From Oscillibacter sp. (GTDB lineage: Bacteria; Bacillota; Clostridia; Oscillospirales; Oscillospiraceae), in contig JAFXQV010000037.1 of the NCBI GenBank assembly GCA_017526785.1, forward strand, positions 1 through 40,541: a stretch of DNA of 40,541 nucleotides. Direction: 5' to 3'. The notes beneath the pieces are model-generated. The model was not told the origin of the DNA and did no database searches. It saw only the letters and a program-made list of their open reading frames with translations. Shown here in pieces: positions 1 to 40,541 of this stretch. Within the stretch, counting starts at the first letter, position 1. Each line of letters starts with the position of its first letter. The position numbers and the translations under genes are program-made.

Positions 1-2
1 AA

Positions 3-89
3 CGGGGAAACGGCATGAATAAGAGCCTGTTCCGGGGTTCAATTTTCGGCGTGATTTTGCCGATTCTCTACAGTTTCTTTCCGTCTTAA
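3..89 (+). CDS. 3' end of a possible small membrane protein (partial)
   Basis: An open frame enters from the left edge and stops with TAA at 87-89. The visible part has an internal ATG at 15 and ends in a hydrophobic run (GSIFGVILPILYSFFP), like a membrane segment followed at once by the stop. There is no clear ribosome binding site before the ATG at 15, so the frame more probably continues from outside the window. I do not recognise a family. It could also be chance open sequence. Confidence 0.3.
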   Translation, partial: RGNGMNKSLFRGSIFGVILPILYSFFPS

Positions 90-117
90 TCAAGGCTTCC
101 ATATTTTGGAAAATTCC

Positions 118-170
118 CCTACAAAAAAGTTATGCCGACTTCGCGTAGGTCGGTGTCAAGTTTTTGTAGG
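118..170. other. nested hairpin in repeat unit 1
   Basis: The outer arms CCTACAAAAA (from 118) and TTTTTGTAGG (to 170) are complementary. Inside them CCGAC (135-139) pairs with GTCGG (149-153) around a TTCGCG-containing loop. A CTTTTT run follows. It could act as a terminator for the gene ending at 89, or be a REP-like palindrome. Confidence 0.5.
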
Positions 171-307
171 ACTTTTTCCGAGCCGCCGCAAAGCGCATAT
201 TTTGCCAACGCCGCAAGGCAATTTTGGCGGGGATTCAAGGCGTATTTTTGATAGCACCACCCATTTCACGCCTATTCGTAATTTACAAAATATGGAAATT
301 AAAAAGT

Positions 308-366
308 CCTACAATTATTTTACGCCGACTTCGCGTAGTCGGTGTCAAGTTTGTGTAGGGCTTTTT
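308..366. other. nested hairpin in repeat unit 2
   Basis: CCTACA (308-313) pairs with TGTAGG (354-359), and CCGAC (325-329) pairs with GTCGG (338-342). It is preceded by AAAAAG and followed by CTTTTTT. Both arms are kept in both repeat copies although the spacer diverged, which suggests that the fold matters. Confidence 0.5.
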
Positions 367-613
367 TAGAGCCGCCGTAAAGCCATATTTTGACAGCGAC
401 GCCGCGCAATTTTCGGCGCGGATTCAAAGGGTATTTTCGAGTGCAAACGCACGTTTCGCGTCTGCTCAAAATTTCCATTATATGGAAGGTAAAAGTCCTG
501 CAATTATTTTATGTAAGCGTTTTTGCGATTTTGGATACACGCACAAAGAAAGCGCGTTTTTAAAGTTAAAAACTGTATCTTATGACTAAATTATGGAAAT
601 TCACAGATTTCTC

Positions 614-642
614 TTGCCGATGTCCGCCCCGTATGGTATACT
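614..642 (+). promoter_or_regulatory. sigma-A promoter of the esterase lipoprotein gene
   Basis: TTGCCG (614-619), a 17-bp spacer and TATACT (637-642) lie 35 bp upstream of the ATG at 677. AAGGAGGA (663-670) is the ribosome binding site. Further upstream, 511-526 carries a weak cre-like match (TGTAAGCG...) that could suggest catabolite control, but its right half does not fit. Confidence 0.75.
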
Positions 643-676
643 GAAGCCATACAGCGAAATATAAGGAGGAAACGCC

Positions 677-2074
677 ATGAAAAGAAAAACGCTGTTTCTG
701 TCGCTTGCGCTCGTGACGCTGGCGGCGCTTCTGGCGGCTTGCGGCGGCACGCAGACCGACGCCGAGCCGGAAGCCGGGGAAACGTCCGCCGAAACGCCGG
801 ACACCTACGAATGTCAGTTAATCGGCACGGTCACGGACGCCGGACAGGTCGTCAGCGCCCTGACCATCGACTTCGGCGAGGCCAAGAAGGTCACGGGCGT
901 GGACAACGACACGTTCACGGTTCACGCGACCGCTTCCACGGAGGCGTTCCGGGAGGGGACGGAACTGGAGAGCTTCGGCGATTACGACATTGACCGCGCC
1001 ATTGTCAAGGTCGAGGACGGGCAGAAGGTCACGCTTTATTTCGACGAATCGGAGGGCGCGACGCTGGCCTATACGTCCGGTTCCCGGAACTATCCCGCCG
1101 ACTTGACCTACACGGTTACGCAGAACAAGCCCGTAACGCTGACGGCGGCGGACGGCACGGTATTGCGGGAGGAATACACGGCGGAATACACATGCGACAA
1201 CTCCGTGCAGGACGCGGAGACCGCGAAATTTGAATCCGTCATCGTCCCCGGCGGAGTCAACTATCAGTTTTACGACGCGGGCGCGGACAAGCTGGTTGTC
1301 TGGTTCCACGGCAACGGGGAAGGCGACCTGTTGCAGTCCGGCAACAACGTCGCGCAGATGTTGGCGAATCGCGGCACCGTGGCATGGGCGTCGGACGAGT
1401 TCCAGACGATTTTAGGCGGCGCGTCCGTGATGGCGTTCCAAGCCCCCGATACGTGGTACTACGCGCAGAAGGACGGGCTTCTGGACAAGGTCGCCGATGA
1501 AATCAACGCCGTGATTGCGGAAAGTAGCATTAACCCGGCGAAAGTTCTGGTTTCCGGTTGTTCGGCGGGCGGCTACATGACAACGCGCATGATTATCGCC
1601 CACCCGGAACTGTTTCAGGCGGCGATGATTAGCTGTCCGGCCTACGACGTGGCGTCGGACAGGGGCGGCGAGACCCCCACGGATGAGGAATTGCAGGCCG
1701 TCAAAGCCTCTGGCGTCGCCGTGTGGCTCGTGCAGGGCGAGACGGACAGCGTGGTAGCCACCGACGCCTGCTCCAAGCGCCTGTTTGACATTCTGGCGGA
1801 CGGCGACACGCTGACGGAAACCGCCGTCAAGCAGGAACTGCCGGAAAATTCCGATTTCACCACGTATGAAACCGCCGACGGCAAATATAAGCTGTCCCTC
1901 TACGACACCACGGACGAGGACAAGTTACGCTTCGCGGAGGACTACGACCAAGACGGCGTTTTCAGTGAAGTGCAGTACAGCAGTCACTGGTCGTGGATTT
2001 ACACGTTAAAGAATAACCCGCAGTCGGCGGACGGCACGCATATCGTAAACTGGGCGGCCGGATTTGTAAGTTAA
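677..2074 (+). CDS. secreted lipoprotein esterase, alpha/beta-hydrolase fold
   Basis: A predicted lipid-anchored, extracytoplasmic serine hydrolase of 465 aa. Residues 1-21 are a lipoprotein signal peptide with lipobox LAAC (Cys22). Residues ~45-165 look like the beta-rich Ig-like N-terminal domain found on some bacterial esterases. The rest is an alpha/beta hydrolase: nucleophile elbow GCSAGG with Ser296, probable acid Asp357 (GETDS) and His437 (SSHWSW), in canonical order. The motif VVWFHGNGEG (~residues 208-217) would supply the oxyanion-hole segment. The relatives I have in mind are feruloyl/acetyl esterase- and prolyl-oligopeptidase-like hydrolases; the substrate cannot be read from sequence. 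The start is fixed by a strong ribosome binding site and promoter. It stands alone, with a 204-bp gap to glf. Confidence 0.85.
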   Translation: MKRKTLFLSLALVTLAALLAACGGTQTDAEPEAGETSAETPDTYECQLIGTVTDAGQVVSALTIDFGEAKKVTGVDNDTFTVHATASTEAFREGTELESFGDYDIDRAIVKVEDGQKVTLYFDESEGATLAYTSGSRNYPADLTYTVTQNKPVTLTAADGTVLREEYTAEYTCDNSVQDAETAKFESVIVPGGVNYQFYDAGADKLVVWFHGNGEGDLLQSGNNVAQMLANRGTVAWASDEFQTILGGASVMAFQAPDTWYYAQKDGLLDKVADEINAVIAESSINPAKVLVSGCSAGGYMTTRMIIAHPELFQAAMISCPAYDVASDRGGETPTDEELQAVKASGVAVWLVQGETDSVVATDACSKRLFDILADGDTLTETAVKQELPENSDFTTYETADGKYKLSLYDTTDEDKLRFAEDYDQDGVFSEVQYSSHWSWIYTLKNNPQSADGTHIVNWAAGFVS

Positions 2075-2204
2075 TACGGTACCGCAACCGGGTCACAAGG
2101 GCGTTTTGGCGGACAATATTGTTTCGGCACATTGCGGAGGGGACACTTTCTGAAAATGTCGTTCATGGAGGAACTTTTGTCTCTGACACTCAAAACGGGA
2201 AAAT

Positions 2205-2226
2205 ACCCACGACTTGCGCCGTGGGT
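2205..2226 (+). other. hairpin in the glf leader
   Basis: ACCCACG (2205-2211) pairs perfectly with CGTGGGT (2220-2226). There is no T-run, so it is not a standard terminator. It lies about 50 bp before the glf start and may affect leader folding. The rest of the gap 2075-2278 shows no clear promoter. Confidence 0.35.
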
Positions 2227-2278
2227 GTGCCGCAGGCGAAACATGGAATATGATATTTTTGGAAAGGATAACTATCAT

Positions 2279-3391
2279 ATGTACGATTATCTCATTGTGG
2301 GCGCGGGACTGTACGGGGCGGTATTCGCGCGCGAGGCCGCCGACAGCGGAAAGAGCGTCCTTGTCGTTGACAGGCGCCCCCACATCGCCGGGAACGTCTA
2401 CACGGAACAGGTCGAGGGTATCCACGTCCACAAGTACGGCGCGCATATCTTCCACACCAACAACAAAACTGTGTGGGATTACGTCAACCGTTTCGCAGTG
2501 TTCAACCGCTTCACCAACTCGCCCGTGGCGAACTACAAAGGAAAACTGTACTCCCTGCCGTTCAACATGTACACGTTCAATCAGATGTGGGGCGTCGTGA
2601 CGCCCGCCGAGGCCGCCGCCAAAATCGCCGAACAGCGGCGCGAAATCACCGGAGAGCCGCGCAATTTAGAGGAACAGGCCATTTCCCTTGTCGGGCGCGA
2701 CATCTACGAAACGCTTGTCCGAGGCTACACGGAAAAGCAGTGGGGGCGTGACTGCAAGGACTTGCCCGCGTTCATCATCCGGCGTCTTCCAGTGCGCCTT
2801 ACGTTTGACAACAACTACTTCAACGCGCTGTATCAGGGAATCCCCGTCGGCGGCTACACGAACTTTGTCGCCAACATGCTGGACGGTATCGAAGTCCGGC
2901 TGGACACGGATTACATGATACATCGCGGGGAGCTGTCGGAACTGGCGCGGAAAACCGTGTACACGGGGGCGATTGACGCCTATTTCGACTATTTCGCGGG
3001 CTGTCTGGAATACCGCTCTGTCCGCTTTGAGACGGAGCTACTGGACATCCCGAACTTTCAGGGAAACGCGGCCGTCAACTACACCGACCGGGAGACGCCG
3101 TGGACGCGTATCATTGAGCATAAATGGTTCGAGTTCGGGCGCGACGAGGCCGGGAACGAACTCCCGAAAACGGTTATCAGCCGGGAGTATTCGTCGGAGT
3201 GGAAGCCGGGCGACGAGCCATACTACCCCGTGAACGACGCGAAAAACGGCGCGCTGTACGCGCAGTACAAAGCGCTTGCCGATAAGGAACAGAATGTGAT
3301 ATTCGGCGGACGCTTGGGCGAGTACAAGTATTACGACATGGACCAAGTCATCGGCGCGGCGCTGGAACGCGCCCACGCGGAATTGGCATAA
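2279..3391 (+). CDS. glf: UDP-galactopyranose mutase
   Basis: A flavoenzyme that interconverts UDP-galactopyranose and UDP-galactofuranose, supplying galactofuranose for cell-surface glycans. The 370-aa product matches the family's usual length. It opens with the FAD-binding Rossmann motif VGAGLYGA (residues 7-14), followed by the family signatures KYGAHIFHT, FNRFTNSPVA, LPFNMYTF, YTEKQWG, PVGGYTNF, RIIEHKW and GGRLGEYKYYDM. I chose ATG 2279 because MYDYLIVGAG is the standard N-terminus and GGAAAGG (2261-2267) precedes it. The frame extends upstream to 2132 and an ATG at 2243 is possible, but that extension is not family-like. No glycosyltransferase genes accompany it here. Confidence 0.95.
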   Translation: MYDYLIVGAGLYGAVFAREAADSGKSVLVVDRRPHIAGNVYTEQVEGIHVHKYGAHIFHTNNKTVWDYVNRFAVFNRFTNSPVANYKGKLYSLPFNMYTFNQMWGVVTPAEAAAKIAEQRREITGEPRNLEEQAISLVGRDIYETLVRGYTEKQWGRDCKDLPAFIIRRLPVRLTFDNNYFNALYQGIPVGGYTNFVANMLDGIEVRLDTDYMIHRGELSELARKTVYTGAIDAYFDYFAGCLEYRSVRFETELLDIPNFQGNAAVNYTDRETPWTRIIEHKWFEFGRDEAGNELPKTVISREYSSEWKPGDEPYYPVNDAKNGALYAQYKALADKEQNVIFGGRLGEYKYYDMDQVIGAALERAHAELA

Positions 3392-3396
3392 GATTT

Positions 3397-3421
3397 CCCC
3401 CGGCGGAACTTCCGCCGGGGG
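3397..3421. terminator. bidirectional terminator between convergent genes
   Basis: CCCCCGGCGGAA (3397-3408) is the perfect complement of TTCCGCCGGGGG (3410-3421). The 12-bp GC-rich stem lies six bases after the glf stop and nine bases before the stop of the convergent hydrolase gene. Confidence 0.85.
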
Positions 3422-3429
3422 ATTGCCTG

Positions 3430-4065
3430 TCAGCCTTCTTGAGTTTTGGACGGTTCCACGTATTCGGGAACATAGACGCCGGACGGCATGTCTTTCGTGA
3501 TTTCCAAGGAGTTGCCGTGCAGTCTGTGGATGGAGGCGAACGGCCAGAGTTTCAGGAAGGATTCCACGTCGGCGAGATTGGGCATGCCGTAGGGCGGGTG
3601 GTAGTAGTGCATGGGTATCACGCAACGCGGACGGAGCGCCATACAGGCGGATTTCGCGCCCATGGCGTCAATCGTGTAATGGCCGCCCACGGGAATGAGC
3701 ATGACCGTCAGCGGGCCGATTTCCTGAACCTGTTCCAGCGTCAGATGGTGTCCCAAGTCGCCCATATGGGCAATCGTGATATCGTCGGCGCTGAAAACGT
3801 GGATAGCGTTTTCTCCGCGTTCGGCTCCCTCTTTGTCGTCGTGGAAGGTGCGAACCGTCCGGACGGCGAACGGGTTTCGCCAGCCTTTCCGGGGCGTGAC
3901 AACGTCCGTGGCGTTATGGTCGGAGTGCGCGTGGCTGCAGTAGACGCAGTCGGCCTTTAGGCGCAGGGGCGGATAGCCCGGCACGTCCTTGTAGGGGTCT
4001 ATGACGAGCTTGTAGGAATCGTGCTCCAGCATAAAGCAGGAATGCCCTAACCATGTCAGTTTCAA
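3430..4065 (-). CDS. metal-dependent hydrolase, metallo-beta-lactamase fold (UPF0173/UlaG-like)
   Basis: A 211-aa cytosolic hydrolase. The zinc-binding signature HAHSDH is at residues 45-50, with further metal ligands in MGDLGHH and GGHYTID, and CVIPMHYYHPP near the C-terminus. The N-terminus LTWLGHSCFMLE is typical of the UPF0173/YtkL branch related to L-ascorbate-6-phosphate lactonase UlaG. The true substrate is unknown. The start is TTG at 4065, spaced seven bases from GGAGGAGG. The promoter is not obvious, and the short gap (40 bp) to the DUF4349 gene upstream suggests co-transcription. Confidence 0.85.
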   Translation of the reverse strand: MKLTWLGHSCFMLEHDSYKLVIDPYKDVPGYPPLRLKADCVYCSHAHSDHNATDVVTPRKGWRNPFAVRTVRTFHDDKEGAERGENAIHVFSADDITIAHMGDLGHHLTLEQVQEIGPLTVMLIPVGGHYTIDAMGAKSACMALRPRCVIPMHYYHPPYGMPNLADVESFLKLWPFASIHRLHGNSLEITKDMPSGVYVPEYVEPSKTQEG

Positions 4066-4105
4066 AATATTTCCTCCTCCACATATGCCCGGTCAGTGCC
4101 GGGTG

Positions 4106-5197: not shown

Positions 5198-5277
5198 TGG
5201 TATTCCCCCTTTTCGCTTGCGGCGTGGCCGCGTTTGTCTGTTAGACGGAATTTCACGGAAAAAGTTCCGCTTTCCTG

Positions 5278-5891: not shown

Positions 5892-5937
5892 TCACGCTGA
5901 CGGCGCGTTACTGTACTTTGTCACGCTGACGGCGCGT
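5892..5937. repeat. 17-bp direct repeat spanning the lon stop codon
   Basis: TCACGCTGACGGCGCGT occurs at 5892-5908 and again at 5921-5937, a 29-bp period. The right copy contains the lon TGA (5923-5921 on the minus strand); the left copy lies in the leader of engB. This looks like a recent tandem duplication of the lon 3' end. Confidence 0.9.
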
Positions 5938-8377
5938 CTTTGGGACGCCGTACTTTTCGGCGCGTTTTCGGCATGCCGCCGACGCCCGAGAGCGATTCCG
6001 TGTCCGTGAGCGTCTCGCGCAGAGGCTCCGACGACGGACACAGCGCCGCCGCAAACACTTCGTCGACCGTCTCCACGGGGATGAACTGCAACGCCGCCCT
6101 TACGGTCTGGTCGATGTCCTCTAAATCCCGTACGTTGTCCTTGGGAATCAGCACCGTATGAATACCACAGCGTTTCGCGGCCATGGTCTTTTCTTTGAGG
6201 CCGCCGATGGGCAGGACGCGCCCGCGAAGCGTGACCTCTCCCGTCATGGCGATTCCGGCGCGGATACGCTGTCCCGTCAGCGCCGACAGCATGGCCGTTG
6301 TCACGGCGATTCCGGCCGACGGGCCGTCTTTCGGTACCGCGCCCTCCGGGAAGTGTACGTGGATGTCCTTGTTTTTGTAAAACTCCGCGTCAATGCCCAG
6401 CATGGCGGCGCGGCTCCGCAGACAGCTAAGCGCCGCCGACGCGGACTCCTTCATCACGTCGCCCAGATTGCCCGTCAGTTCCAATTTCCCGCCGCCCTCC
6501 ATGACGTTGACTTCCACTTCCAGAATCTCGCCGCCGGTCTCCGTCCACGCAAGGCCGTTCACGACGCCGATTTCCTCGCGGTCGGTACGCAGGGGCGGCG
6601 GATAGGGCTGGCAGTCCAGCAGTTTGGGCAGGTCGCTCTCCGCGACGACGAACCGCTTTGCGTCGCCCTGTAACAGATACATATCGGCCTTGCGGCAGAG
6701 CGCGGCCAAGCGCCGCTCTAATTGCCGTACGCCCGATTCCCGCGTGTAGTCGCGTATCACGGCGCGGATTACGTCGTCACCGACGCGGAGCATACTCTTT
6801 TTCAAACCGTGTTCGGCAAGCTGTTTCGGGAGTAAGTGCAGACGCGCAATTTGCAGCTTCTCCTCGTCCGTGTAACTCGATAACTGGATGACTTCCATAC
6901 GGTCAAGCAGGGGACGCGGAATCGTCTCCGTAGTGTTGGCCGTGGTGATGAACATCACATGACTGAGGTCGACGGGGATTTCAAGAAAGTGGTCGCGGAA
7001 CGCGTGATTTTGTTCGCTGTCCAGCGCCTCCAGAAGCGCGGAGGCGGGGTCTCCGTGATAATCGTTGCCTACTTTGTCGATTTCGTCCAGCAGAAGCAGG
7101 GGGTTCATAGAGCCGCCGCGCGTGATGGCCTCGATAATGCGGCCGGGCATGGCGCCTATGTAGGTTTTGCGGTGTCCGCGGATGTCGGCCTCGTCGCGGA
7201 CTCCGCCCAGCGACAGCCGCGCCAGCTTCCGGTTCAAGGCCTTCGCCACGGAAATGGCAATCGACGTTTTCCCGACGCCGGGCGGCCCCACCAGACACAG
7301 AATTTGCCCCTTGCTTGCGGGGTTCATCTGCCGCACGGCGATGGTCTCCAAAATGCGCTCCTTGACCTTTTCCAGCCCGAAATGGTCGCGTTCCAGCGTT
7401 TTCCGGGCGATATCCACGCTGACGCGCTCTTTCGTTTCGGTGTTCCACGGCACGTCGAGACAGGTTTCCAGATAGTTGTGGATGACGGACGCCTCCGCGC
7501 TCCCGTAGGACTGCCGGGAGAGTTTCTGTAACTCCTTCATGAGGTGAGTTTCCGATTCCTCGTCCAGCCCCAGCGCAAGAATTTTCTCCCGGTAGGCCTC
7601 GATTTCCTCCTCCTCGTCGCCACCTTCGCCGAGTTCGTGTTGCAGGACGCGGATTTGTGTCCGAAGTATCTGCTCACGGTGGTTCCGCGCCAGACTTTCC
7701 CGTACTTTCTGTTCCATTTCGCGCTCGAAGCCCAGCACGTTGCATTCCCGCGCCAGAATCGAGTTCAGACGCCGCAGGCGCGGGAACGGCGACATTTCCT
7801 CCAACACGCTTTGCTTGTCGGAATGCCGCATAGGGAGATTTTGCGCGATAAAGTCCGCTAAATAACCGGGGTCTTTACAGTCCATAATGGTGTTGGCGAT
7901 TTCCTCCGGGATGTTCCCGGACAGTTCCGCGTACTGCGCGAACAGGCTCATAGTCTGCCGAAGCAGTGCCTCCGTGCGGGGACTTTGCCGAAATGTCTCC
8001 GACACGGGCGGCTCGGGGAGTTCCTCGACGTTAGCCTGCAGAAACGGCTCCGACTGCCACAGACGCCGCAGACGCGCCCGGCACCGCCCCTCAATCATGA
8101 CGCGTACGGCGACGGGCGACAGGCGTAAAACTTGGCTGACGTGCGCCAACGTGCCGATTTCGTAGAGTTCCTTTTCTCCGGGGACTTCCACCCCGATTTC
8201 CCTTTGTGTGACTAAAAATATGGTCTGGTCGGTCTCCATGGCGCGTTCGAGCGCCGCCACGGAGATTCGACGCTCCATGTCAAATGTCAAGTTCATATGC
8301 GGGAAGACGGTCAATCCCCGCATGGCCAAAACCGGGACATTCCAAGTTGCCGATTCTACCGCTTCCATAGGCTTCAC
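5921..8377 (-). CDS. lon: ATP-dependent Lon protease
   Basis: An 818-aa AAA+ serine protease that degrades misfolded and regulatory proteins in the cytosol. Order of domains: N-terminal substrate-binding LON domain (~12-210), coiled coil (~215-310), AAA+ module with Walker A GPPGVGKT (364-371) and Walker B LLLLDEIDK, and a protease domain with the Ser687/Lys730 dyad (PKDGPSAG; GGLKEK). I chose the GTG start at 8377, just behind GGAAAGGA; ATG three codons later is an alternative. The C-terminus is Arg/Lys-rich (RRKVRRPK). It follows clpX by 108 bp and precedes engB, the order seen in many Clostridia and Bacilli. Confidence 0.95.
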   Translation of the reverse strand: MKPMEAVESATWNVPVLAMRGLTVFPHMNLTFDMERRISVAALERAMETDQTIFLVTQREIGVEVPGEKELYEIGTLAHVSQVLRLSPVAVRVMIEGRCRARLRRLWQSEPFLQANVEELPEPPVSETFRQSPRTEALLRQTMSLFAQYAELSGNIPEEIANTIMDCKDPGYLADFIAQNLPMRHSDKQSVLEEMSPFPRLRRLNSILARECNVLGFEREMEQKVRESLARNHREQILRTQIRVLQHELGEGGDEEEEIEAYREKILALGLDEESETHLMKELQKLSRQSYGSAEASVIHNYLETCLDVPWNTETKERVSVDIARKTLERDHFGLEKVKERILETIAVRQMNPASKGQILCLVGPPGVGKTSIAISVAKALNRKLARLSLGGVRDEADIRGHRKTYIGAMPGRIIEAITRGGSMNPLLLLDEIDKVGNDYHGDPASALLEALDSEQNHAFRDHFLEIPVDLSHVMFITTANTTETIPRPLLDRMEVIQLSSYTDEEKLQIARLHLLPKQLAEHGLKKSMLRVGDDVIRAVIRDYTRESGVRQLERRLAALCRKADMYLLQGDAKRFVVAESDLPKLLDCQPYPPPLRTDREEIGVVNGLAWTETGGEILEVEVNVMEGGGKLELTGNLGDVMKESASAALSCLRSRAAMLGIDAEFYKNKDIHVHFPEGAVPKDGPSAGIAVTTAMLSALTGQRIRAGIAMTGEVTLRGRVLPIGGLKEKTMAAKRCGIHTVLIPKDNVRDLEDIDQTVRAALQFIPVETVDEVFAAALCPSSEPLRETLTDTESLSGVGGMPKTRRKVRRPKDAPSA

Positions 8378-26525: not shown

Positions 26526-29354
26526 ATGCAAGACAAAATCATCGTCAAAGGCGCGCGCGTCAATAACCTGAAAAACCTTGATGTGACGATTCCCCGTGAC
26601 AAGCTGGTCGTCATGACGGGGCTTTCGGGTTCCGGCAAGTCCTCCCTCGCGTTCGATACCATTTACGCCGAAGGACAACGGCGTTATGTCGAAAGCCTGT
26701 CCTCCTACGCGAGAATGTTCCTCGGACAAATGGAAAAGCCCGACGTGGACTATATCGAAGGCCTCTCCCCGGCCATCTCCATTGACCAGAAGACCACCAG
26801 CAAAAATCCGCGTTCGACCGTCGGCACCGTTACCGAAATTTACGACTATTTACGCCTGCTGTGGGCGCGGGTGGGCGTCCCGCACTGCCCCAAGTGCGGG
26901 AAGGAAATCCGACAGCAGACCATAGACCAAATTATAGACCAGTTGCTCTCTCTCCCGGAGGGTACGCGGATACAGGTCATGTCCCCGGTCGTGCGCGGCA
27001 AAAAGGGCGAACACGCCAAAGTCTTTGACAGCGCCCGGCGTTCGGGCTATGTGCGCGTCCGCGTCGACGGCAACCTGTACAGTCTCGACGAAGAAATCAA
27101 GCTCGAAAAAAACAAAAAGCACAATGTCGAAATCGTGATTGACCGTCTCGTGATACGCCCCGACATCCGCCAGCGCCTGACCGACAGCGTGGAAACGGCG
27201 TCGGCGCAGTCGGGCGGACTGGTGATAGTCAACCTGCCGCGAGAGGAACAGAATTTGACCTTTTCGCAGAATTACGCCTGCGAGGACTGCGGCATTTCCA
27301 TTGAGGAACTCACGCCCCGGATGTTCTCGTTCAACAACCCGTACGGATTCTGCCCGGCCTGTACCGGACTGGGAAGCCAGTTGAAAGCCGACCCCGCGCT
27401 TATGATTCCGGACGAAAGCAAATCTATCGCCGACGGGGCGTTTGAAGTCAGCGGGTGGCGGAATATCAAGGCCGACGGTATCGCCCGGATGTACTTCGAG
27501 GCGCTGTCGGAGAAGTACCATTTTTCGCTTGACGCGCCGTGGCGGACACTCTCCGACGAGGCGAAACAAATTCTCCTGTACGGCACGGACGGCGAAAAGT
27601 TAGAGTTACACTACGACCAGCCACGCGGAAAGGGTGTGCTGTACCAGCCCTTTGAGGGAATCTGCAACAACGTCGAGCGGCGCTACCGCGAGACCCAGAG
27701 CGACGCCAGCAAGAACGAGTTAGAGGAACTTATGTCGGAGTGTCCCTGCCCGGTGTGCGGGGGGCGGCGACTGCGCAAGGAGGCCTTAGCCGTGACCGTG
27801 GGCGGACAGGATATCGACGCGTTCACGCGCCTGTCCGTGGGCGAGGAACTCGAACGCGTCCAGCGGTTGGAACTCTCCCCGCAACAGCACCGCATCGCCG
27901 ACCAAATTTTGAAGGAAATCCGGGCGCGGTTAGGCTTCCTGCAATCCGTGGGACTGGGCTATCTGACGCTGAGCCGTTCGGCCGGGACGCTCTCCGGCGG
28001 CGAAAGCCAGCGTATCCGGCTTGCGACGCAAATCGGTTCGTCCCTCATGGGCGTGCTGTATATTCTCGACGAGCCGTCCATTGGACTGCACCAGCGCGAC
28101 AACGACAAACTCCTTGCGACACTCCGCGACTTGCGCGACCTCGGGAATACGTTACTGGTCGTCGAACACGACGAGGACACCATGCGGGCGGCGGATTACC
28201 TCATAGACATTGGCCCCGGCGCGGGCGTACACGGCGGGGAAGTCGTCGCGGCGGGGACGCCCGAAGAGGTCATGAACAACCCCAACAGTCTGACGGGGCA
28301 ATACCTGTCGGGCGTACGCCGCATTCCGGTTCCCGAAACACGCCGCCCCGGCAACGGAAAATTTCTGCGCGTACTCGGCGCGGCGGAAAACAACCTCAAA
28401 CACATTGACGTGGCGTTTCCGCTGGGGCTGTTCACGGTCGTGACGGGCGTTTCGGGGAGCGGGAAGTCGTCGCTTGTGAACGAAATCCTGTTCAAGCGGC
28501 TGGGCGCTGACCTCATGCGGATGAAAGTCCGCCCCGGGCGCTGTGCCGGGATAGAGGGTATCGAACACCTCGACAAAGTCGTGAACATCGACCAAAGCCC
28601 GATAGGCCGTACGCCGCGTTCCAATCCGGCGACGTATACGGGACTTTTCAACGATATCCGGGATTTGTTCGCGTCCACGCCGGAGGCGAAAAGCCGCGGC
28701 TATCAAGCGGGGCGGTTCAGTTTCAACGTACGCGGCGGACGCTGTGAGGCCTGTTCCGGCGACGGCGTACTCAAAATCGAAATGCACTTCCTGCCGGACG
28801 TGTTTGTACCGTGCGAAGTCTGCCACGGCAAGCGCTACAACCGCGAGACGTTGGAAGTACGCTACAAGGGCAAGAACATTTCGGAAGTCCTTGACATGAC
28901 TGTAGACGAGGCGCTGCCGTTTTTCGAGACACTCCCGAAACTGCGGAACCGTCTGCAAACGCTACAGGATGTCGGCTTGGGCTATGTGAAACTCGGACAA
29001 CCGTCGACGGAACTTTCCGGCGGGGAGGCGCAACGCGTCAAACTGGCTACGGAACTGTCCAAACGCGCCACCGGGCGGACAATCTATATCTTGGACGAAC
29101 CCACGACCGGACTGCATACCGACGACGTACGGCGCTTGCTGGACGTGTTACAGCGTCTTGTGGACGCGGGCAACACGGTCGTGGTCATCGAACACAATTT
29201 AGACGTGATTAAGTGCGCGGATTACGTGATAGACCTTGGCCCCGAAGGCGGCGACGGCGGCGGGGAGATTGTCGCGACGGGAACCCCGGAAGAAGTCGCG
29301 GAGTGTGCGGACAGTTTCACCGGGCAGTATCTCCGGCGCGTGCTGGAACCATAA
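26526..29354 (+). CDS. uvrA: UvrA, damage-recognition ATPase of nucleotide excision repair
   Basis: A 942-aa ABC-type dimeric ATPase that loads UvrB on damaged DNA. It has two Walker A motifs, GLSGSGKS (32-39) and GVSGSGKSS (second half), two ABC signatures ([12 protein letters not shown] and [12 protein letters not shown]) and zinc-binding Cys pairs (CPKCG, CEDCG...[12 protein letters not shown]...CEVCHG). ATG 26526 has AAAGGAG eight bases upstream. uvrB is not adjacent. Regulation by SOS is suggested by the operator at 26485. Confidence 0.98.
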
Positions 29355-32288: not shown

Positions 32289-34808
32289 TTATTCTTCGCG
32301 GGGAATGTCCGCAGAGACGGGCGGGAGTTCCTCCGGGGGGTCGAGTTCCGATGACGCCAGCGCCATGGAAATCAACTGGTCGCCGTCCTCCCGGAAACGC
32401 ATCACAATAACGCCCTGCGTGGCGCGTCCGGCGGTCTTGATACGCTGTACGGCTGTACGGAGCAAGTTTCCATTGCGGGACATCAGAAGCACGTCTTCCG
32501 AACCGTCCACAACGCGCACACCGACAATTTTGCCCGTCTTTTCGGTCACGGCGTAGTTGCGGACGCCGGAGCCGCCACGCGCCGTCAAGCGGTAGTCCTC
32601 CACGGGGGAACGCTTGCCGAAGCCGTTTTCCGTGACGGAAAGCACGGTCATACCCGGCGGGGCGCAGTCCGCGCCTACAACGTAATCCCCCTCCCGGAGC
32701 TTGATACCGCGCACGCCGACGGCGGTTCGCCCCATCGGCCGCACTTCCGATTCCGGGAAACACACGGCCTGTCCGTCGTGGGAGGCAATCAGCAGGTTTT
32801 GATTCCCGTCCGTCTCGCGGACAGCTATCAGGCGGTCGCCCTCGTCTAAAACCAGTGCGCGGATACCGTGATTGCGCACATTGCGGAGCGTCTCCACTGG
32901 CAGGCGCTTTACCGTGCCGTTGCGCGTGGCCATGAACAGGAAACGGCAGTGCAGGTCGTCGACGTTCTTTGTGTGAATCATGGTCTGCACGCGTTCGCCG
33001 GGTTCCACGGGCAGGATATTCACGACGGCGGCACCCTTGGCGGCCTTGCCGGATTCGGGTATCTGGTAGCCCTTCTTGCGGTAGACCTTGCCCGTGTCGG
33101 TGAAGAAGAAAATAAAGTCATGGGTGGACGCCGTGAAAACGTCCGTCACAACGTCTTCTTCCCGGGTCGTGATTCCGCGCCGTCCCATGCCGCCGCGAGA
33201 TTGTCCGGCGTACTCGCTGACGGGCGTCCGCTTGATGTACCCCGCTTCCGTCAGCGTGAAGACGCACTCTTCCTCTTCGATTAAATCCTCAATGTCAAGG
33301 TCGTCCTCCACATCCTGTATCTCGGTCATACGGTCGTCGCCGAACCGCCCCGAAATGGCAATCAGTTCTTCCTTGAGAATCCGCCGTACGAGTGCCGGGT
33401 CAGCCAATACGCGTTGGAAATAGTCAATCTGTTCTTCCAGTTCCTGATACTCGGTTTCGAGCTTCTCGCGGTTCAGGCCTTGCAGGGAAATCAGACGCAT
33501 GTCACAAATGGCTTGCGCCTGTACTTCGTCAAGCCGGAAGCGCTCCATTAAGTTGTCACGGGCGTTGTCGTAACTGCTCCGGATAATGCGGATTACCTCG
33601 TCAATGTTGCCCTGCGCGACGAGTAAGCCTTCCAACAGGTGCGCGCGTTCCTGCGCCTTGGCCAAGTCGTGGCGCGTCCGGCGCGTGATGACTTCCTCCT
33701 GAAACGTCAAATACTCGTCGATGATGTGCCGCAAGGACAAAATCCGAGGCTGTTTCTGGTTGTCGACCAGCGCCAGCAGAATGACCGCGAAACTTGACTG
33801 TAGCGCTGTCTGCGCGAACAGGCGATTTAACACCACCTGCGGATTGGCGTCCTTTTTGAGTTCGATAACGATTCTCATGCCGTTGCGGTCGGTCTCGTCG
33901 CGCAAGTCGGAAATGCCGTCCAGACGCTTGTCTTTGACCTGTTCGGCGATGTTGCGTATGAGTTGCCGCTTGTTGACCTGATACGGAAGCTCCGTAATGA
34001 CAATCCGGGTGCGGTCGCGCCCGAACTCCTCGAACTCATGCCGGGCGCGGATGAGAATCCGGCCGCGTCCGGTGGCGTAGGCGGCGCGGATTCCGCTCCG
34101 CCCCATGATGATTCCGCGCGTGGGGAAGTCGGGGCCTTTGATGTGCTGCATGAGGTCGGAGAGCGTGGCGTCGGGGTTGTCGAGTACGCAGACACACGCC
34201 CCGATAACTTCCCGCAAGTTGTGCGGCGGAATGTTCGTCGCCATGCCCACGGCGATTCCCGATGAGCCGTTTACCAGCAGATTCGGGAAGCGTGCCGGGA
34301 GTACGCGCGGCTCTTTGCGGTTTTCGTCAAAGTTGGGGTCCCAGTCGACGGTATCGCGGTCGATGTCGCGGAGCATTTCGTTCGAGATTTTGGAAAGGCG
34401 TGCTTCGGTGTAACGGTAGGCGGCGGGCGGGTCGCCGTCCACGGAGCCAAAGTTTCCGTGGCCGTCCACGAGCATGTATCTCATGGAGAAATCCTGCGCG
34501 AGCCGCACCATGGCGTCATAAACCGACGCGTCCCCGTGGGGGTGGTACTTGCCGAGAACTTCGCCGACGGTCGTCGCGGACTTGCGAAACGGCTTGTCAG
34601 AGGTCAGCCCATCCTCGTACATCGCGTACAGAATCCGGCGGTGTACGGGCTTCAAGCCGTCCCGGACATCGGGCAGAGCGCGGCCTACAATGACGCTCAT
34701 GGCATACTCAATGTAGGATTTTTCCATCTCGTCCACCAGCCGGGACTCCGTAATGACTTGATTGGGGAACGAAATGTCCTCCGGTTGATAGTCTCTGTTA
34801 TGCGCCAT
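32289..34808 (-). CDS. gyrA: DNA gyrase subunit A
   Basis: The DNA-breakage subunit of the type IIA topoisomerase that introduces negative supercoils. The 839-aa product has catalytic Tyr133 ([10 protein letters not shown]), the quinolone-resistance region [20 protein letters not shown] (from His89), [17 protein letters not shown], and a six-bladed C-terminal domain. The GyrA box is degenerate (QSRGGMG for QRRGGKG). Ala94 occupies the place of E. coli Ser83. AAGGAGAC precedes the ATG. It is separated from gyrB by two small membrane-protein genes. Confidence 0.96.
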
Positions 34809-35120: not shown

Positions 35121-35407
35121 TCCGCCTCCTCCTCTACGGGCGCGGCCTCTTCGGTGTTGGTATCGGCGGCGGGGACTTCCTCCGCGCTGTCTCCTTCTTC
35201 CTCTTCCTCGTCCTCGTCGAGTTCGGTTTCCTCGCCCGTGAGCCACTCGTAGGCCGACAGGCACAGAAGCACGACACTGCCCAGCGCGGTGAGCAATCCC
35301 AGCGCCACGGAGAGCGTTTTCCGCTTCCGGGTACCGTTGGCCAGTTCGGCACTGCCGATGAAAAGTCCTGTAATGCCGACAATGAATTTTACAAAGCAAT
35401 CAGACAT
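35117..35407 (-). CDS. small membrane protein with long acidic tail
   Basis: A 96-aa protein of unknown function. Two hydrophobic segments (FVKFIVGITGLFIGSAELA, and SVALGLLTALGSVVLLCLSAYEWL) are joined by a basic turn (NGTRKRKTL). The last ~38 residues are almost all acidic (EETELDEDEEEEEGDS...EEEAE). AGGAGG precedes the ATG. It follows gyrB by 67 bp and overlaps the next small membrane gene, suggesting that the two products act together. Confidence 0.75.
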   Translation of the reverse strand: MSDCFVKFIVGITGLFIGSAELANGTRKRKTLSVALGLLTALGSVVLLCLSAYEWLTGEETELDEDEEEEEGDSAEEVPAADTNTEEAAPVEEEAE

Positions 35408-35474
35408 GGGGAAAACCTCCTAAAAAATATGGAAAGTATAGCGAACCGCGCCGGAGCGCGGAAAGCGGACGGCG

Positions 35475-37403
35475 TCAGATATCAATATTGACCGCGTACA
35501 TGGCGTTCCGTTCAATCCATTCCTTGCGCGGCTCGACCTGTTCGCCCATCAGGATTGTAAACACCTCGTCGGCGCGTACGGCGTCATCCAAGGTGATACG
35601 GCGCAGAGAACGGCGTTCGGGGTCCATGGTGGTTTCCCAGAGTTCGTGGGGGTCCATCTCGCCGAGGCCTTTAAAGCGGTTGATTTCCACTTTCGTGTTG
35701 GGATTGCCGCCGCGCAGTTCGGCGCTTACGCGGTCGCGTTCGGCGTCGGAGTAGGCCACGCGGACGGTCTTCCCGCGCGTGAGCTTGTAGAGCGGCGGCA
35801 CCGCCGAGTAGACATAGCCGCGTTCAATCAGAGGCCGCATGTAGCGGAAAAAGAACGTCAGAAGCAGTGTCCGGATATGCGCGCCGTCCACGTCGGCGTC
35901 CGCCATGATGATGATTTTGTGGTAGCGGAGCTTGTCAATGTTGAACTCGCCGCCGATACCCGCGCCCAGCGCGACTATCATGGGGTAGAGTTTGTCGTTG
36001 CCGTAAATCTTATCGGCGCGCGCCTTCTCGACGTTGAGCATTTTTCCCCACATGGACAAAATCGCCTGAAAGCGGGAGTCGCGCCCCTGAATCGCCGACC
36101 CGGCGGCGGAATCGCCCTCTACAATGTAGATTTCGCACAGGGACGGGTCACGCTCGTTGCAGTCCTGTAACTTGTCGGGCATTTGCCCGGATTCAAGGCC
36201 GGTCTTGCGGCGGATAGATTCCCGCGCCTTTTTGGCGGCCTCGCGGGCGCGGCTGGCGGTCATGGCCTTGTCGACGATTGCCCGCGCCGTCTGCGGGTTC
36301 TCCTCCAGAAATGTTTCCAGCTTTTCGGACACCATCGCGTTGACAAGCGTCCGGATTTCGGAATTGCCGAGTTTGGACTTTGTCTGCCCCTCAAACTGGG
36401 CTTCGGTCAATTTCACGGATATGACACATGTCAGACCTTCGCGGCAGTCCTCGCCGGACACCTTCTCGTCGTCTTTCAGCAGTTTCATTTTGTGTCCGTA
36501 CGCGTTCAGGACGGACGTTAGAGCGCGCTTGAAGCCTTCCTCGTGCATGCCGCCTTCGGGCGTGTGGACGTTGTTTGCGAAAGAGAAAATGGTCTCGTTG
36601 TAGCCGTCGTGGTACTGCATGGCGATTTCGGCCACGGAGTCCCCGCGCTGGGCGGTCATGTAGATGACTTCCGGGTGCAGCGGGTCACGGTTCTTGTTCA
36701 GCCACGTCACGAACTCCCGGATTCCGCCCCGGTAGCACATGGAATGCTCCTGTTCGACACCCGGACGGGCGTCCACCGTGCGAATTTGAAGCCCGGCCGT
36801 TAAAAACGCTTCCTCTCTCATGCGCGTGCGGAGAATGTCGTAATCGTAGACGGTATCCTCGAAGATTTCGGGGTCGGGCTTGAATGTGACGGTTGTCCCC
36901 GTGCGGTCGGTCTCGCCGACGACCGTCAGCGGCTCGACGACTTCCCCGCGCCGGAACTTCATTTCGTAAATGCGGCCGTCGCGGTGTACCTGCACGGTCA
37001 GCCACTCCGAAAGCGCGTTGACGACCGACGCGCCGACGCCGTGGAGGCCGCCGGAGACCTTGTAGCCGCCGCCGCCGAACTTGCCCCCGGCGTGCAGGAC
37101 GGTGTAGACGACTTCCAGCGCGGGGCGTCCGGTCTGGGCTTGGATGTCGACGGGGATTCCGCGCCCGTTGTCGGTGACGGTAATCGTGTCGCCGTCGTTG
37201 ATTCGGACGAGAATTTCCGTGCAGAACCCGGCCAGCGCCTCGTCCACGCAGTTGTCCACGATTTCATAGACAAGGTGGTGCAGGCCGCTCGACGACGTAG
37301 AGCCGATATACATGCCGGGACGTTTCCGGACAGCTTGGAGGCCTTCGAGAACCTGAATTTCCGAGGCGTCATAAGTGGTTGACGGGGCGTTTGTGACTTC
37401 CAT
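35475..37403 (-). CDS. gyrB: DNA gyrase subunit B
   Basis: The ATPase subunit of gyrase, 642 aa. The GHKL ATPase blocks are EIVDNCVDEALAG, DNGRGIPV and HAGGKFGGGGYKVSGGLHGVGASVVNALS; the TOPRIM domain has EIYIVEGDSAAGSA and ADADVDGAHIRTLLLTFFFR; the C-terminus has INRFKGLGEMDPHELWETTMDP. The TOPRIM core reads EGDSAAGSAIQGRD...SMWGKMLNVEKA rather than the commoner EGDSAGGSAKQGRD...PLRGKILNVEKA. ATG 37403 is eight bases behind AAAGGA; the open frame to 37475 starts before the promoter P2. Confidence 0.95.
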   Translation of the reverse strand: MEVTNAPSTTYDASEIQVLEGLQAVRKRPGMYIGSTSSSGLHHLVYEIVDNCVDEALAGFCTEILVRINDGDTITVTDNGRGIPVDIQAQTGRPALEVVYTVLHAGGKFGGGGYKVSGGLHGVGASVVNALSEWLTVQVHRDGRIYEMKFRRGEVVEPLTVVGETDRTGTTVTFKPDPEIFEDTVYDYDILRTRMREEAFLTAGLQIRTVDARPGVEQEHSMCYRGGIREFVTWLNKNRDPLHPEVIYMTAQRGDSVAEIAMQYHDGYNETIFSFANNVHTPEGGMHEEGFKRALTSVLNAYGHKMKLLKDDEKVSGEDCREGLTCVISVKLTEAQFEGQTKSKLGNSEIRTLVNAMVSEKLETFLEENPQTARAIVDKAMTASRAREAAKKARESIRRKTGLESGQMPDKLQDCNERDPSLCEIYIVEGDSAAGSAIQGRDSRFQAILSMWGKMLNVEKARADKIYGNDKLYPMIVALGAGIGGEFNIDKLRYHKIIIMADADVDGAHIRTLLLTFFFRYMRPLIERGYVYSAVPPLYKLTRGKTVRVAYSDAERDRVSAELRGGNPNTKVEINRFKGLGEMDPHELWETTMDPERRSLRRITLDDAVRADEVFTILMGEQVEPRKEWIERNAMYAVNIDI

Positions 37404-37448
37404 TGTGGAGTTCCTTTCTACGGACGGCGGAGCGTTTGTATCATGGTC

Positions 37449-37477
37449 ATTGTACCACACTTTCCGGGAAAACAAAA
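37449..37477 (-). promoter_or_regulatory. gyrB promoter P2 (proximal)
   Basis: On the minus strand TTTTGT (37477-37472), 17 bp, TACAAT (37454-37449). Its -10 is good and its -35 weak. Confidence 0.5.
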
Positions 37478-37551
37478 GCGTATTTTACGATTTAACGCAA
37501 AAATTTTGAGCGCCGAAAAAAATGCTGCCGCCACCGTGATTCAATGCCCCT

Positions 37552-37580
37552 ATTATACATGAAAACCGGGCAAATGTAAA
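37552..37580 (-). promoter_or_regulatory. gyrB promoter P1 (distal)
   Basis: On the minus strand TTTACA (37580-37575), 17 bp, TATAAT (37557-37552). It gives a leader of about 145 nt before gyrB that includes P2. Confidence 0.75.
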
Positions 37581-37614
37581 TAACGTCCGCAAATATTTTG
37601 TGCAACAGGAAATG

Positions 37615-38937
37615 TCACAGTTCGGGCATGGCGTCGGGTTCCGGCCAGTCGCCGGAGGGTTCGGCGGCGCGTTCGAGGCTCGGGAGCGTCAGCACAAGGC
37701 GTATCGCCCACGGCGGCATTGTCACCGATAACGGCGGCTCGTCCAGCAGTACAAACGCCGTCTCGTACGGCGGGCGCTTCGACGGATACACGCCCATGCC
37801 GTCCGTGAAGTACACCAGCCCCCGTAGACTGTGGAACGCGCCCTCTTTCCGCAATTTCTCCACGTACTCGAACACCGGACGAAAGTCCGTAGCGCTCCCG
37901 CCCGATAACCGGAACTGTTCCATACATGCTTTCAGTTCGTCCAGACTGTGTATCGGCGTGTCGGCGCGGATACGGTCGTCACACTGCAGAACGCGGATGT
38001 TGACTTTCCGGGTGAAAGTCCCCGTACTCCGCAAAATGGCATACGTACAAGCCAGAAATTCCCGCACGAGTTCGCCGGATGTCGACATGGACGTGTCGAC
38101 GGCTATGACAAAGTCCTCAATGCGGCGCTCCTCGCGGGTCTCGACGGGTTCCACCAGCGGCAGATTCCCGTAGAGCCGCAGTCCGTACGTGTAAAACACG
38201 GGGTCGAACGCGTTGCCGTCAAGCGACACCACCTCGCGCGGCACCGCGAAGCGTCGCAGAAACGCCCGGTAGTCGATATCGTCCCGCACCGCCGCCTTGA
38301 CCTGTTCCAACACGGTCTCGCCGCCCGTGGCCTGTCCGGCAAGGACAGTTTCCATAGCGGTCTGTGTCTTTTCGGAAAGCTCTTTCCAGCGCTCATCCTG
38401 TTTCGCAGCGCTGTCGCGCTCCCAAAGGTCGTGTTCGTCGACAAAGAACTGTCTCCGCAGTGCGCCTAACTCGAACTCCGACAGGTTCCGGCGCAACAGG
38501 TGACGGTAAATGCCTTCCGCGGTAAGCACTCTCATGTCCCGCTGACACTCGCCGTAAAACTTGCGCCGCGCGGGGGCTTGCGCCGTCCGCAGACAGGCAT
38601 AGTCCAGCGTGTCCAGCACGCTTTCCACCGCCGCGTCACAGGCCAAGTCCCACAGTTCCGCGACCTTCCCGCGACGCTTGCCAACGTGCCGTAACATGCA
38701 GTGTAACACGATATGCAGATAAGCCCGGTTGACCAAAACCGGGCTTCTTAAATAGCGGTCAGCCAGATAGGCGGCGTCATAGCGCAACGTCGCGCCGTCC
38801 GTGGCGAGCGACAGCGTGTCGCCGGGCGTGAACGACAACGCGCACAGCGCCGCGTCGAGATACGGCAGATTCATATACAGTTCGTTCCGCGCCGAAAACA
38901 ACAGTTCTTCCCCGACAGATTCCAAAGTCTGTTCCAT
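37615..38937 (-). CDS. VWA-like protein with putative metallopeptidase domain (DUF2201 type)
   Basis: A 440-aa protein. The N-terminal half resembles the putative metallopeptidase region of the DUF2201 family, with AYLHIVLHCMLRHV (His75, His79, His84); the Glu of an HExxH motif is absent, so catalysis is doubtful. The C-terminal half is a von Willebrand A-like domain with the metal-site motif DTSMS (Asp281 onward), later SGGSATDF and YFTDGMG. Such proteins usually work with a MoxR-type AAA+ ATPase as chaperone or remodelling partner; none is encoded next to it. The ATG has GAGGG upstream and follows the LRR gene by 10 bp. Confidence 0.85.
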   Translation of the reverse strand: MEQTLESVGEELLFSARNELYMNLPYLDAALCALSFTPGDTLSLATDGATLRYDAAYLADRYLRSPVLVNRAYLHIVLHCMLRHVGKRRGKVAELWDLACDAAVESVLDTLDYACLRTAQAPARRKFYGECQRDMRVLTAEGIYRHLLRRNLSEFELGALRRQFFVDEHDLWERDSAAKQDERWKELSEKTQTAMETVLAGQATGGETVLEQVKAAVRDDIDYRAFLRRFAVPREVVSLDGNAFDPVFYTYGLRLYGNLPLVEPVETREERRIEDFVIAVDTSMSTSGELVREFLACTYAILRSTGTFTRKVNIRVLQCDDRIRADTPIHSLDELKACMEQFRLSGGSATDFRPVFEYVEKLRKEGAFHSLRGLVYFTDGMGVYPSKRPPYETAFVLLDEPPLSVTMPPWAIRLVLTLPSLERAAEPSGDWPEPDAMPEL

Positions 38938-38947
38938 AATTCCCTCA

Positions 38948-39919
38948 TTACAGCGCGAAGCGCGACCTGTCCCGCCCGGGAAAACGTTTGCGCTGTTCGT
39001 CCAGCAGGAATGCGACCGCTTCCGTTTGCCCCCGTTCGCGGGCGGCCGCGCACGCGTCCGACAGCGCGTCGCGGCCGGGCGACGTACGCCGTACCAGAAA
39101 CGCGAGTCCGGCGCTGTCACGCGCCGACAACAGCCACGCCGCGACCTCCCGGAAATGTTCGCCCAGAAACGCCGTATAGGCTTCACGGGCGGCACCGGAC
39201 AGCCTCTCCGGGTACCGTACGCGCCACCACGCCAGACGGCACGCGGTATCCGCGTCCATGACCACGCACGACTTACGCCAGAGCGCGTCGTACTCCGAAA
39301 AATTCAGGCGGCGCTCCCGGAAACAGTGATGATACGGGTATCCGACGCCCTCTATCACGTAATCGAAGTGATGAGCCGGGCAGTTTTCCTCGTAGCTCTC
39401 GCGGAACTCCGGGAAAATCAGCCGGAACAGGGGGACAGACACCGTACGCGATACGGTAATGTCAAGTTCCCGGTTCAGTTCCCCGGCGAAGTACGCCAGC
39501 GCGCCGCCGTCGGCGTCCGGCCGCACAATCTCCACGCGTTCCAGCGAACGGCAGTTGACCAGTACGCCGCTCCCCCAGCGCGTCACGCCGTCCCACAGGC
39601 ACAGCCGCGACAGGGCGCGGCAGTTGTAGAGCGCGTAATCGCCCACGCGGCGCAGTCCGGGCGGGAGTTGTAACACTTCCAGCGCTTGATTGTCCCACGC
39701 GCCCGCGCCCGTGCCGCACTCGATACGCACCTGTTCCCCCGCGACTTCCGGCGCGTCCGGCGACATCGCGCGCGCACCCAGCCCGACGACCGGAACGCCC
39801 CACAGCGTTTCCGGCAACGCCGCCCGCGTGTCGCACGTCCGACAGCGCAGGAGCGTTACGCCGTCGGGGTCACGCCGCGCCGTCAGTGTCCAGTTGCTTT
39901 CCCCGTTGAACGTCTCCAC
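38948..39919 (-). CDS. leucine-rich-repeat protein paired with the VWA protein
   Basis: A 323-aa cytosolic protein. Residues ~80-135 form BspA-like leucine-rich repeats (PPGLRRVGDYALYNCRALSRL; VLVNCRSLERVEI). The N-terminus has a CxxC (RCRTCDTRA). The C-terminus (~240-310) has ankyrin-like helical pairs (AAWLLSARDSAGLAFLVRR, SDACAAARERGQTEAVAFLLDE). No enzyme motif is visible. The start is GTG at 39919 behind AAGGAGG. It is the first gene of a two-gene operon with the VWA protein and may recruit its target. Confidence 0.8.
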   Translation of the reverse strand: METFNGESNWTLTARRDPDGVTLLRCRTCDTRAALPETLWGVPVVGLGARAMSPDAPEVAGEQVRIECGTGAGAWDNQALEVLQLPPGLRRVGDYALYNCRALSRLCLWDGVTRWGSGVLVNCRSLERVEIVRPDADGGALAYFAGELNRELDITVSRTVSVPLFRLIFPEFRESYEENCPAHHFDYVIEGVGYPYHHCFRERRLNFSEYDALWRKSCVVMDADTACRLAWWRVRYPERLSGAAREAYTAFLGEHFREVAAWLLSARDSAGLAFLVRRTSPGRDALSDACAAARERGQTEAVAFLLDEQRKRFPGRDRSRFAL

Positions 39920-39948
39920 GCGCCGCCTCCTTGTCCATTTTCAGGGCA

Positions 39949-39977
39949 ATGATACCACGCCGCGCCGCGAAAATCAA
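39949..39977 (-). promoter_or_regulatory. promoter of the LRR-VWA operon
   Basis: On the minus strand TTGATT (39977-39972), 17 bp, TATCAT (39954-39949), about 30 bp before the GTG start. Confidence 0.75.
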
Positions 39978-40084
39978 CCGCCCCGCAAAAAACGACGGAT
40001 TCTTTGCAAAATTCGTCCCCGTCGCGCAGAAAAAAGCCCCGCCGCGTGGCAGGGAAAAATTTTGTGAAATTTTGTCGGAAGGTC

Positions 40085-40113
40085 TTGCAAAAGGGAAAGT
40101 TATCTGGTATACT
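40085..40113 (+). promoter_or_regulatory. promoter of a putative small RNA
   Basis: TTGCAA (40085-40090), 17 bp, TATACT (40108-40113), with a predicted start at about 40120. No ORF with a ribosome binding site follows. Confidence 0.75.
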
Positions 40114-40119
40114 GTCATT

Positions 40120-40374
40120 AGGGAACACAGGAGACGAGAAGCGGCAGACCGCATTGTGTGCCACCACGTTGCGGTCTCATGCAGAGTGTTCAGCCCACTC
40201 AACACAGCGGACGAAAGTCCGCGCCACAAGCCTTATTATACCCTTTTTCAGACTTTCTCCGCAATCCCGGGAAAGTTATTTGGTAGTTTGCGTAGGGGGA
40301 ATAGTAGGGTTTTATTGGCGACGCTTTGAATTTTTCGGGCGGTGTTGAGTTTATGCGCTCAACACCGTCTTTTG
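40120..40374 (+). ncRNA. putative structured small RNA of unknown class
   Basis: Between a good promoter and an intrinsic terminator lie ~250 bp without a convincing ORF but with perfect stems: AGACCGCA/TGCGGTCT (40146-40153, 40170-40177), GTGTT/AACAC (40186-40190, 40201-40205) and GCGGAC-GAAA-GTCCGC (40207-40222, a GNRA-type loop). AGGG at 40120 can pair with CCCT at 40241-40244 just before TTTTT, so a shorter ~125-nt transcript is also possible. It does not match the conserved cores of RNase P, SRP or tmRNA that I checked by eye. Confidence 0.5.
40340..40374 (+). terminator. intrinsic terminator
   Basis: CGGTGTTGAG (40340-40349) pairs perfectly with CTCAACACCG (40358-40367), an eight-base loop between, followed by TCTTTTGTGTTT. 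Confidence 0.85.
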
Positions 40375-40474
40375 TGTTTCTGACAGCGGCTGTCCGGGGA
40401 GAAGTTTGAAACAACACAATAGCCGAGATGCCCCGAAAAAGAGCGCAATAACAAGACCACCGGAAAGGCGGTTC

Positions 40475-40496
40475 AAAAAGCGGGCTTGAATAAGCC
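40475..40496 (-). terminator. terminator of the right-edge minus-strand gene
   Basis: On the minus strand GGCTT-ATTC-AAGCC (40496-40483) is followed by CGC and TTTTT (40479-40475). It adjoins the stop codon at 40497-40499. The stretch 40375-40470 holds a small hairpin (40382-40394) and no supported gene. Confidence 0.5.
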
Positions 40497-40541
40497 TCAG
40501 CCGGACTCAGCGACTAAATCATCTTTGAAGATGTAGCCCCT
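40497..40541 (-). CDS. 3' end of a minus-strand gene (partial)
   Basis: Fourteen codons (RGYIFKDDLVAESG) and TGA are open to the right edge. The following stem-loop with T-run supports a genuine gene end. The fragment is too short to assign a family. Confidence 0.35.
   Translation of the reverse strand, partial: RGYIFKDDLVAESG

Follow-up and report, generated by a model that had tools for sequence, protein, structure and literature searches.

The DpnII system of S. pneumoniae comprises DpnM, DpnA, and DpnII, and DpnA is not found in all members of the type. Genomes that encode restriction systems may come to lack the words those systems recognize: avoidance of the recognition sites of 'orthodox' Type II restriction-modification (R-M) systems, including traces left by lost systems, is known (Rusinov et al. 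2015, PMC4687349). That work counts a word as avoided at a ratio threshold of 0.78, and reports GATC as underrepresented in 38 of the 42 genomes with methyl-directed enzymes. The case described here, in the genome of an Oscillibacter sp. (G000), is in kind a case of known restriction-site avoidance. As in that survey, a palindromic word is underrepresented where the genome encodes a system to match, the word goes on being avoided in relatives that lack the system, and avoided words outnumber annotated systems. It is unlike those cases, compared without the paper's per-genome extremes, in that the loss is nearly complete and takes in about 14 words together; its completeness and breadth are notable and its degree extreme. 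No comparable purge in Oscillibacter was found in the literature consulted, mostly the beginnings of abstracts, and one may still exist in print.

The window, by which we mean the whole stretch of 40,541 bases that was analyzed, has a GC content of 58.8%, near the 58% estimated by eye in a first-pass annotation. It contains no GATC, where trimer frequencies predict 108.8 and base composition 148.5 (the annotation had supposed about 150). The claim that the word is missing throughout, even from gyrA, gyrB, uvrA, and lon, survived the count, and NCBIfam models identified all four genes (Table 1), one of which, gyrB, served to place G000 and its relatives. Tetramers of the same composition are indeed abundant (GTAC 179, CATG 183, TCGA 178, ACGT 156), and GATATC, also said to be frequent, occurs 16 times. 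Counting against a Markov model beyond the window, a check the annotation had proposed, extends the result to the rest of the genome: 20 further stretches (L081-L100, 365,908 of 2,343,329 bases; 406,449 with the window) hold 5 GATC as against 901 expected. Probing all of G000 with an 8-mer made up of GATC and four G/C gives 5 matches, whereas two other genomes of the genus give 2175 and 2001. Of the five GATC that remain in L081-L100, one is in a phage integrase gene, one in the gene of a KAP-type ATPase, one in rbfA, one in a small HTH regulator, and one in a short ORF that has no Pfam match. Ribosomal RNA was considered as an explanation for these sites and rejected, since none was found in the five stretches examined. 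Two contig ends of G000 carry a RAGATH-18 RNA, with equal scores.

Table 1. Positions of the features discussed (window coordinates unless a locus is named)
Feature	Position	Strand	Basis or remark
Whole window	1..40541	.	GATC 0, CTAG 0; several further restriction-type words absent or nearly so (Markov counts)
lon (endopeptidase La), core gene without GATC	5921..8377	-	NCBIfam TIGR00763
uvrA, core gene without GATC	26526..29354	+	NCBIfam PRK00349.1/TIGR00630
gyrA, core gene without GATC	32289..34808	-	NCBIfam TIGR01063
gyrB, core gene without GATC	35475..37475	-	NCBIfam TIGR01059
DpnII-family endonuclease	L101:572-1426 (contig C18, outside window)	-	PF04556 1.5e-101
D12 methyltransferase	L101:1441-2280 (contig C18, outside window)	-	PF02086 1.3e-54, TIGR00571
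YhdJ-family methyltransferase and Type II endonuclease	L102:288-2424		PRK11524 above cut-off; neighboring PADLOC REase_II match
EcoRV-family endonuclease beside D12 methyltransferase, G222	L124:1360-3053		
EcoRV-family endonuclease adjoining D12 methyltransferase, G024	L305:1303-3300		
D12 methyltransferase, then 176-aa protein, G008	L304:1282-3009		PD-(D/E)XK match (176-aa protein)
RAGATH-18 RNA, G000	L095:23-94		
RAGATH-18 RNA, G000	L096:30-101		

Within genes, the word is escaped at the level of codons. In 239 ORFs of the G000 sample, isoleucine following a codon that ends in G is never encoded by ATC (0/1378, as compared with 2299/3940 elsewhere), its codons having shifted to ATT (1082) and ATA (296). 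Likewise, aspartate preceding C is encoded by GAT in 2 of 852 cases, as compared with 1222 of 5917 elsewhere, the shift being to GAC. In a relative with normal GATC, G243, the same contexts give ATC in 168/285 and GAT in 71/228, and another relative, G218, is intermediate (35/185 and 29/196). The target of avoidance is the four-base word, which is escaped through any synonymous change available.

The first-pass annotation took the loss to be specific to GATC, and this does not hold. CTAG is also absent from the window (29.3 expected), and about 14 words in all, GATC among them, have been purged (Table 2). In the window alone, the observed and expected counts are 0/11 for CACGTG, 0/10 for TTCGAA, 0/7 for AAGCTT, 3/69 for CCWGG, 5/60 for GDGCHC, 3/42 for GGCGCC, and 1/17 for GACGTC. 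The pattern CTMKAG, from a greedy list, is not included in Table 2, since those of its members that could be tested may belong to other patterns. Other words are at normal levels in G000: GATATC (111/115), CGTACG (261/281), and ACGCGT (248/264).

Table 2. Words purged from 406,449 bases of G000
Word	Observed/expected
GATC	5/1016
CTAG	4/286
CCWGG	30/736
GGNCC	191/1640
GDGCHC	41/585
GGCGCC	13/404
GACGTC	9/158
CACGTG	1/93
TTCGAA	1/80
AAGCTT	0/60
AGTACT	1/56
CAGCTG	1/55
GTTAAC	0/21
ATGCAT	0/18

Over the same 406,449 bases, both strands considered, 6-mers free of GATC and CTAG were compared with expectation. Eight of the 52 testable palindromes stand at 5% of expectation or less, as against 2 of 3792 non-palindromes, and those two are GGGCAC and its complement, members of GDGCHC, which we take to be the target of SduI. 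Avoidance is thus confined to restriction-type words, rather than following composition, and targets that are word-specific, palindrome-bound, and sometimes degenerate point to restriction. CTAG (4 in L081-L100, 224 expected) is widely rare in the family, 0/55 even in G243 with its normal GATC, so the loss of CTAG has to be treated separately. In other Oscillospiraceae, GGCC is strongly depleted (1/57 in L017, 30/124 in L048, and 44/149 in L049).

The best named GyrB matches to G000 come from Oscillibacter and other Oscillospiraceae genomes of gut metagenomes, many from ruminants. Among 80 GyrB-related loci, L001, L002, and L064 hold no GATC, and L003, at 86% GyrB identity, holds 112 where 111 are expected; L001, L002, and L003 are apparently contigs of G262, G219, and G243 and so are not independent of those genomes. 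When the 8-mer probe is applied to 86 genomes of the genus, the distribution is bimodal: six genomes have 4 to 31 matches, and the remaining 80 have at least 781. G000 belongs to a clade of seven, of which six (G000, G217, G219, G222, G261, and G262) are GATC-null and G218 is not. By GyrB, G000 is matched best by the other five null genomes and by G218 (91-99%, G261 through two fragments), apart from one short G240 fragment at 90%. In the tree, all of the seven but G261 form a clade with support of 100/99, its inner order open. When 103 samples, none shorter than 15,000 bases, are ranked by palindrome ratio, all six null members fall within the lowest 11. Their purged sets differ in part: CYCGRG is purged in both G217 (0/69) and G222, CGCGCG is missing from G217 (0/88) and GATATC from G222 (0/12), and G262 is likewise short of further restriction-type words. 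No purged words were found in G082, a member of the genus outside the clade.

A search of the genome for GATC-specific restriction or Dam-like genes, also proposed in the annotation, led to a DpnII-type pair on contig C18, where a D12 methyltransferase lies 14 bases upstream of a DpnII-family endonuclease. The endonuclease matches positions 2-276 of the 278 in its profile and keeps 52/52 near-invariant columns. The methyltransferase keeps 35/36; it is the only one of the D12 family found by profile search of the whole genome, and its closest solved relative is DpnM (2dpm). The annotation had suspected pressure from a Sau3AI/DpnII-like endonuclease cutting GATC, and of these the DpnII side has its gene, beside a D12 methyltransferase; on the Sau3AI side, the MutH/Sau3AI family (PF02976) has no match in G000 and one in the 40 genomes searched, which is not GATC-null. 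In its PF04556 endonuclease and its D12 methyltransferase nearest DpnM, the locus is like the S. pneumoniae system. Unlike that system, no DpnA-like gene adjoins the pair in G000, G217, or G262, though G082 has one. In G000 no second, DpnA-like methyltransferase lies between or beside the two genes, and its remaining N6/N4 methyltransferases are located elsewhere.

Two features of the pair were considered as causes of the purge and set aside. The three null carriers lack DpnA and G082 has it, but in the wider class sample there is no clear association: GATC stands at 0.09-0.82 of expectation in 18 carriers whose D12 gene has no clear DpnA beside it (G450 has a possible partial one) and at 0.39-0.86 in 7 carriers with a neighboring DpnA (G082 included), 8 further DpnII carriers not being classable. 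The methyltransferase has DSPY in place of DPPY, which might have meant weak protection, but G082 (0.86 of expectation) and G565 (0.70) also carry DSPY.

Within the genus, DpnII is found in G000, G217, G262, and, outside the clade, G082. Three of these four carriers are GATC-null, as compared with 3/82 of the other genomes (Fisher test, 0.0008, a value that overstates independence, since the three null carriers are all in one clade). G082 has a DpnII endonuclease and two methyltransferases, yet its GATC is near normal (174/203). Genome profile searches gave no DpnII match in the null genomes G219, G222, and G261, nor in three members of the family that are null or nearly so (G006, G015, G027), and no D12 match in the genome of L064. 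G006 (L182, L183), from an unrelated genus of the family, has CATG at 0/30 and GATC at 1/67 and neither a D12 nor a DpnII match. In the class sample, DpnII occurs in 33/391 genomes. None of the 32 carriers other than G000, four of which (G456, G539, G598, G661) have only partial or broken matches, is at GATC zero in its genome sample, the ratios running from 0.09 to 1.37 of expectation; the near-zero GATC of G000 is exceptional even among DpnII carriers. In G008, a genome with few GATC, a D12 methyltransferase is followed by a small protein with a nuclease-type match (Table 1), possibly another GATC-type pair.

The exception within the clade, G218, carries a methyltransferase next to the same neighbor as in G262, a germination protease gene (recognized by Pfam in G262 and by eye in G218). 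G262 has a DpnII endonuclease at this locus; G218 has none there, and no DpnII match was found anywhere in its genome. GATC in G218 is at 87/179, about half of expectation. In aligned genes, none of 35 GATC sites of G243 is also GATC in G218, as compared with 8/47 for the normal pair G243 and G082 (Fisher test, 0.0095). In gyrA and gyrB, G218 keeps 4 of 71 old GATC sites, where normal genomes average 24%, but 7 of its 9 GATC sit where at least four normal genomes have GATC too. The site data lean towards loss followed by regain, over incomplete loss, and the matter is not settled. G262 and G218 present one locus with and without the endonuclease, a pair that could make the rates of site loss and return measurable.

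Besides the methyltransferase of the DpnII-type pair, G000 has two N6/N4 methyltransferases, one in L102 and another whose surroundings, judged by eye, are phage-like. L102 resembles a YhdJ-family methyltransferase with a Type II endonuclease: it has both matches (the endonuclease has none in Pfam), and ATGCAT, presumably the YhdJ target, is nearly missing, 0/18 in the sample and a single occurrence in 46 kb beyond it. To judge from its family and the missing word, the L102 pair probably accounts for the loss of ATGCAT. The EcoRV-family gene of G222, in a genome without the GATATC that is normal in G000, makes a second match of gene and word. A similar gene arrangement occurs in G024, on a stretch too short to judge GATATC. 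For purged words other than GATC and ATGCAT, no candidate emerged from a partial search (profiles PF02086, PF01555, PF04556, PF02976, and TIGR00571 over the whole genome, a cytosine-5 motif over about 17% of it). A scan of 298 ORFs of at least 130 aa from the sample for methyltransferase motifs turned up nothing except the positive control, L102, which a stricter version of the scan missed, and a further 46 kb yielded L102 and one weak NPPF match.

With the absence of GATC, the gene pair, and the codon-level escape all established, the missing GATC is quite likely the result of restriction-site avoidance driven by the resident DpnII-type pair. The endonuclease would cut any GATC left unmethylated and the D12 methyltransferase would protect the word; occasional self-cutting may then be the force that, over many generations, favors GATC-free genomes, with synonymous changes removing sites in whichever reading frame they fall. 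Against this stand the null genomes without a DpnII match (G219, G222, G261) and the near-normal carrier G082. Perhaps, then, another GATC-directed nuclease, clade-wide and outside the DpnII and MutH/Sau3AI families, drove the purge, the DpnII pair being incidental. The same three null genomes would be explained, as would G006, G015, G027, and L064 elsewhere in the family, but a fitting gene pair does exist in G000, G217, and G262, metagenome assemblies 88-96% complete can miss a gene pair, and a recently lost pair would leave an identical trace. We consider such a nuclease unlikely.

The remaining alternatives seem to us less probable still. GATC might be disfavored by a methyl-dependent enzyme of the DpnI kind, or through the part of Dam biology that involves SeqA and MutH, in keeping with the underrepresentation in genomes with methyl-directed enzymes cited above (PMC4687349); with no MutH-family match in G000, and a resident D12 methyltransferase that, by reasoning, would conflict with a DpnI in the same genome, this is very improbable. 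Methylation might itself mutate GATC away, a mutational rather than selective loss. As this would predict, no tetramers of the window are more over-represented than AATC and GATT, each a single transition away from GATC, but the escapes are of several kinds (both ATT and ATA for isoleucine, GAC for aspartate) and G218, with its methyltransferase, still has half of its expected GATC, so that a mutational origin is scarcely to be credited. That the genomes are metagenome assemblies raises the thought that assembly or library preparation drops GATC. The chance of this is close to negligible: records from different studies show the loss (L001 and L002, the apparent contigs of G262 and G219), genes continue as open frames with context-dependent codon choice, and close relatives from the same type of data are normal (L003).

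Avoidance driven by the DpnII-type pair concerns one word. Since GATC is one of about 14 purged restriction-type words, the lineage seemingly is, or once was, under several such systems. The loss of the other words may come from systems since lost, from systems not seen here, or from pressure outside the genome. There is some small chance that the words are kept out together, mostly without a resident enzyme, because DNA of the lineage makes regular passage through cells with many different restriction systems, or mixes with such cells; if so, the community's restriction enzymes could be read off from the missing words. Several words are missing clade-wide without a known enzyme, and what keeps them away is a testable question. 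If restriction-site avoidance is the right explanation, missing words in uncultured genomes record the restriction enzymes a lineage has met, and that record would extend to degenerate targets, such as GDGCHC in G000 and CYCGRG in G217 and G222.
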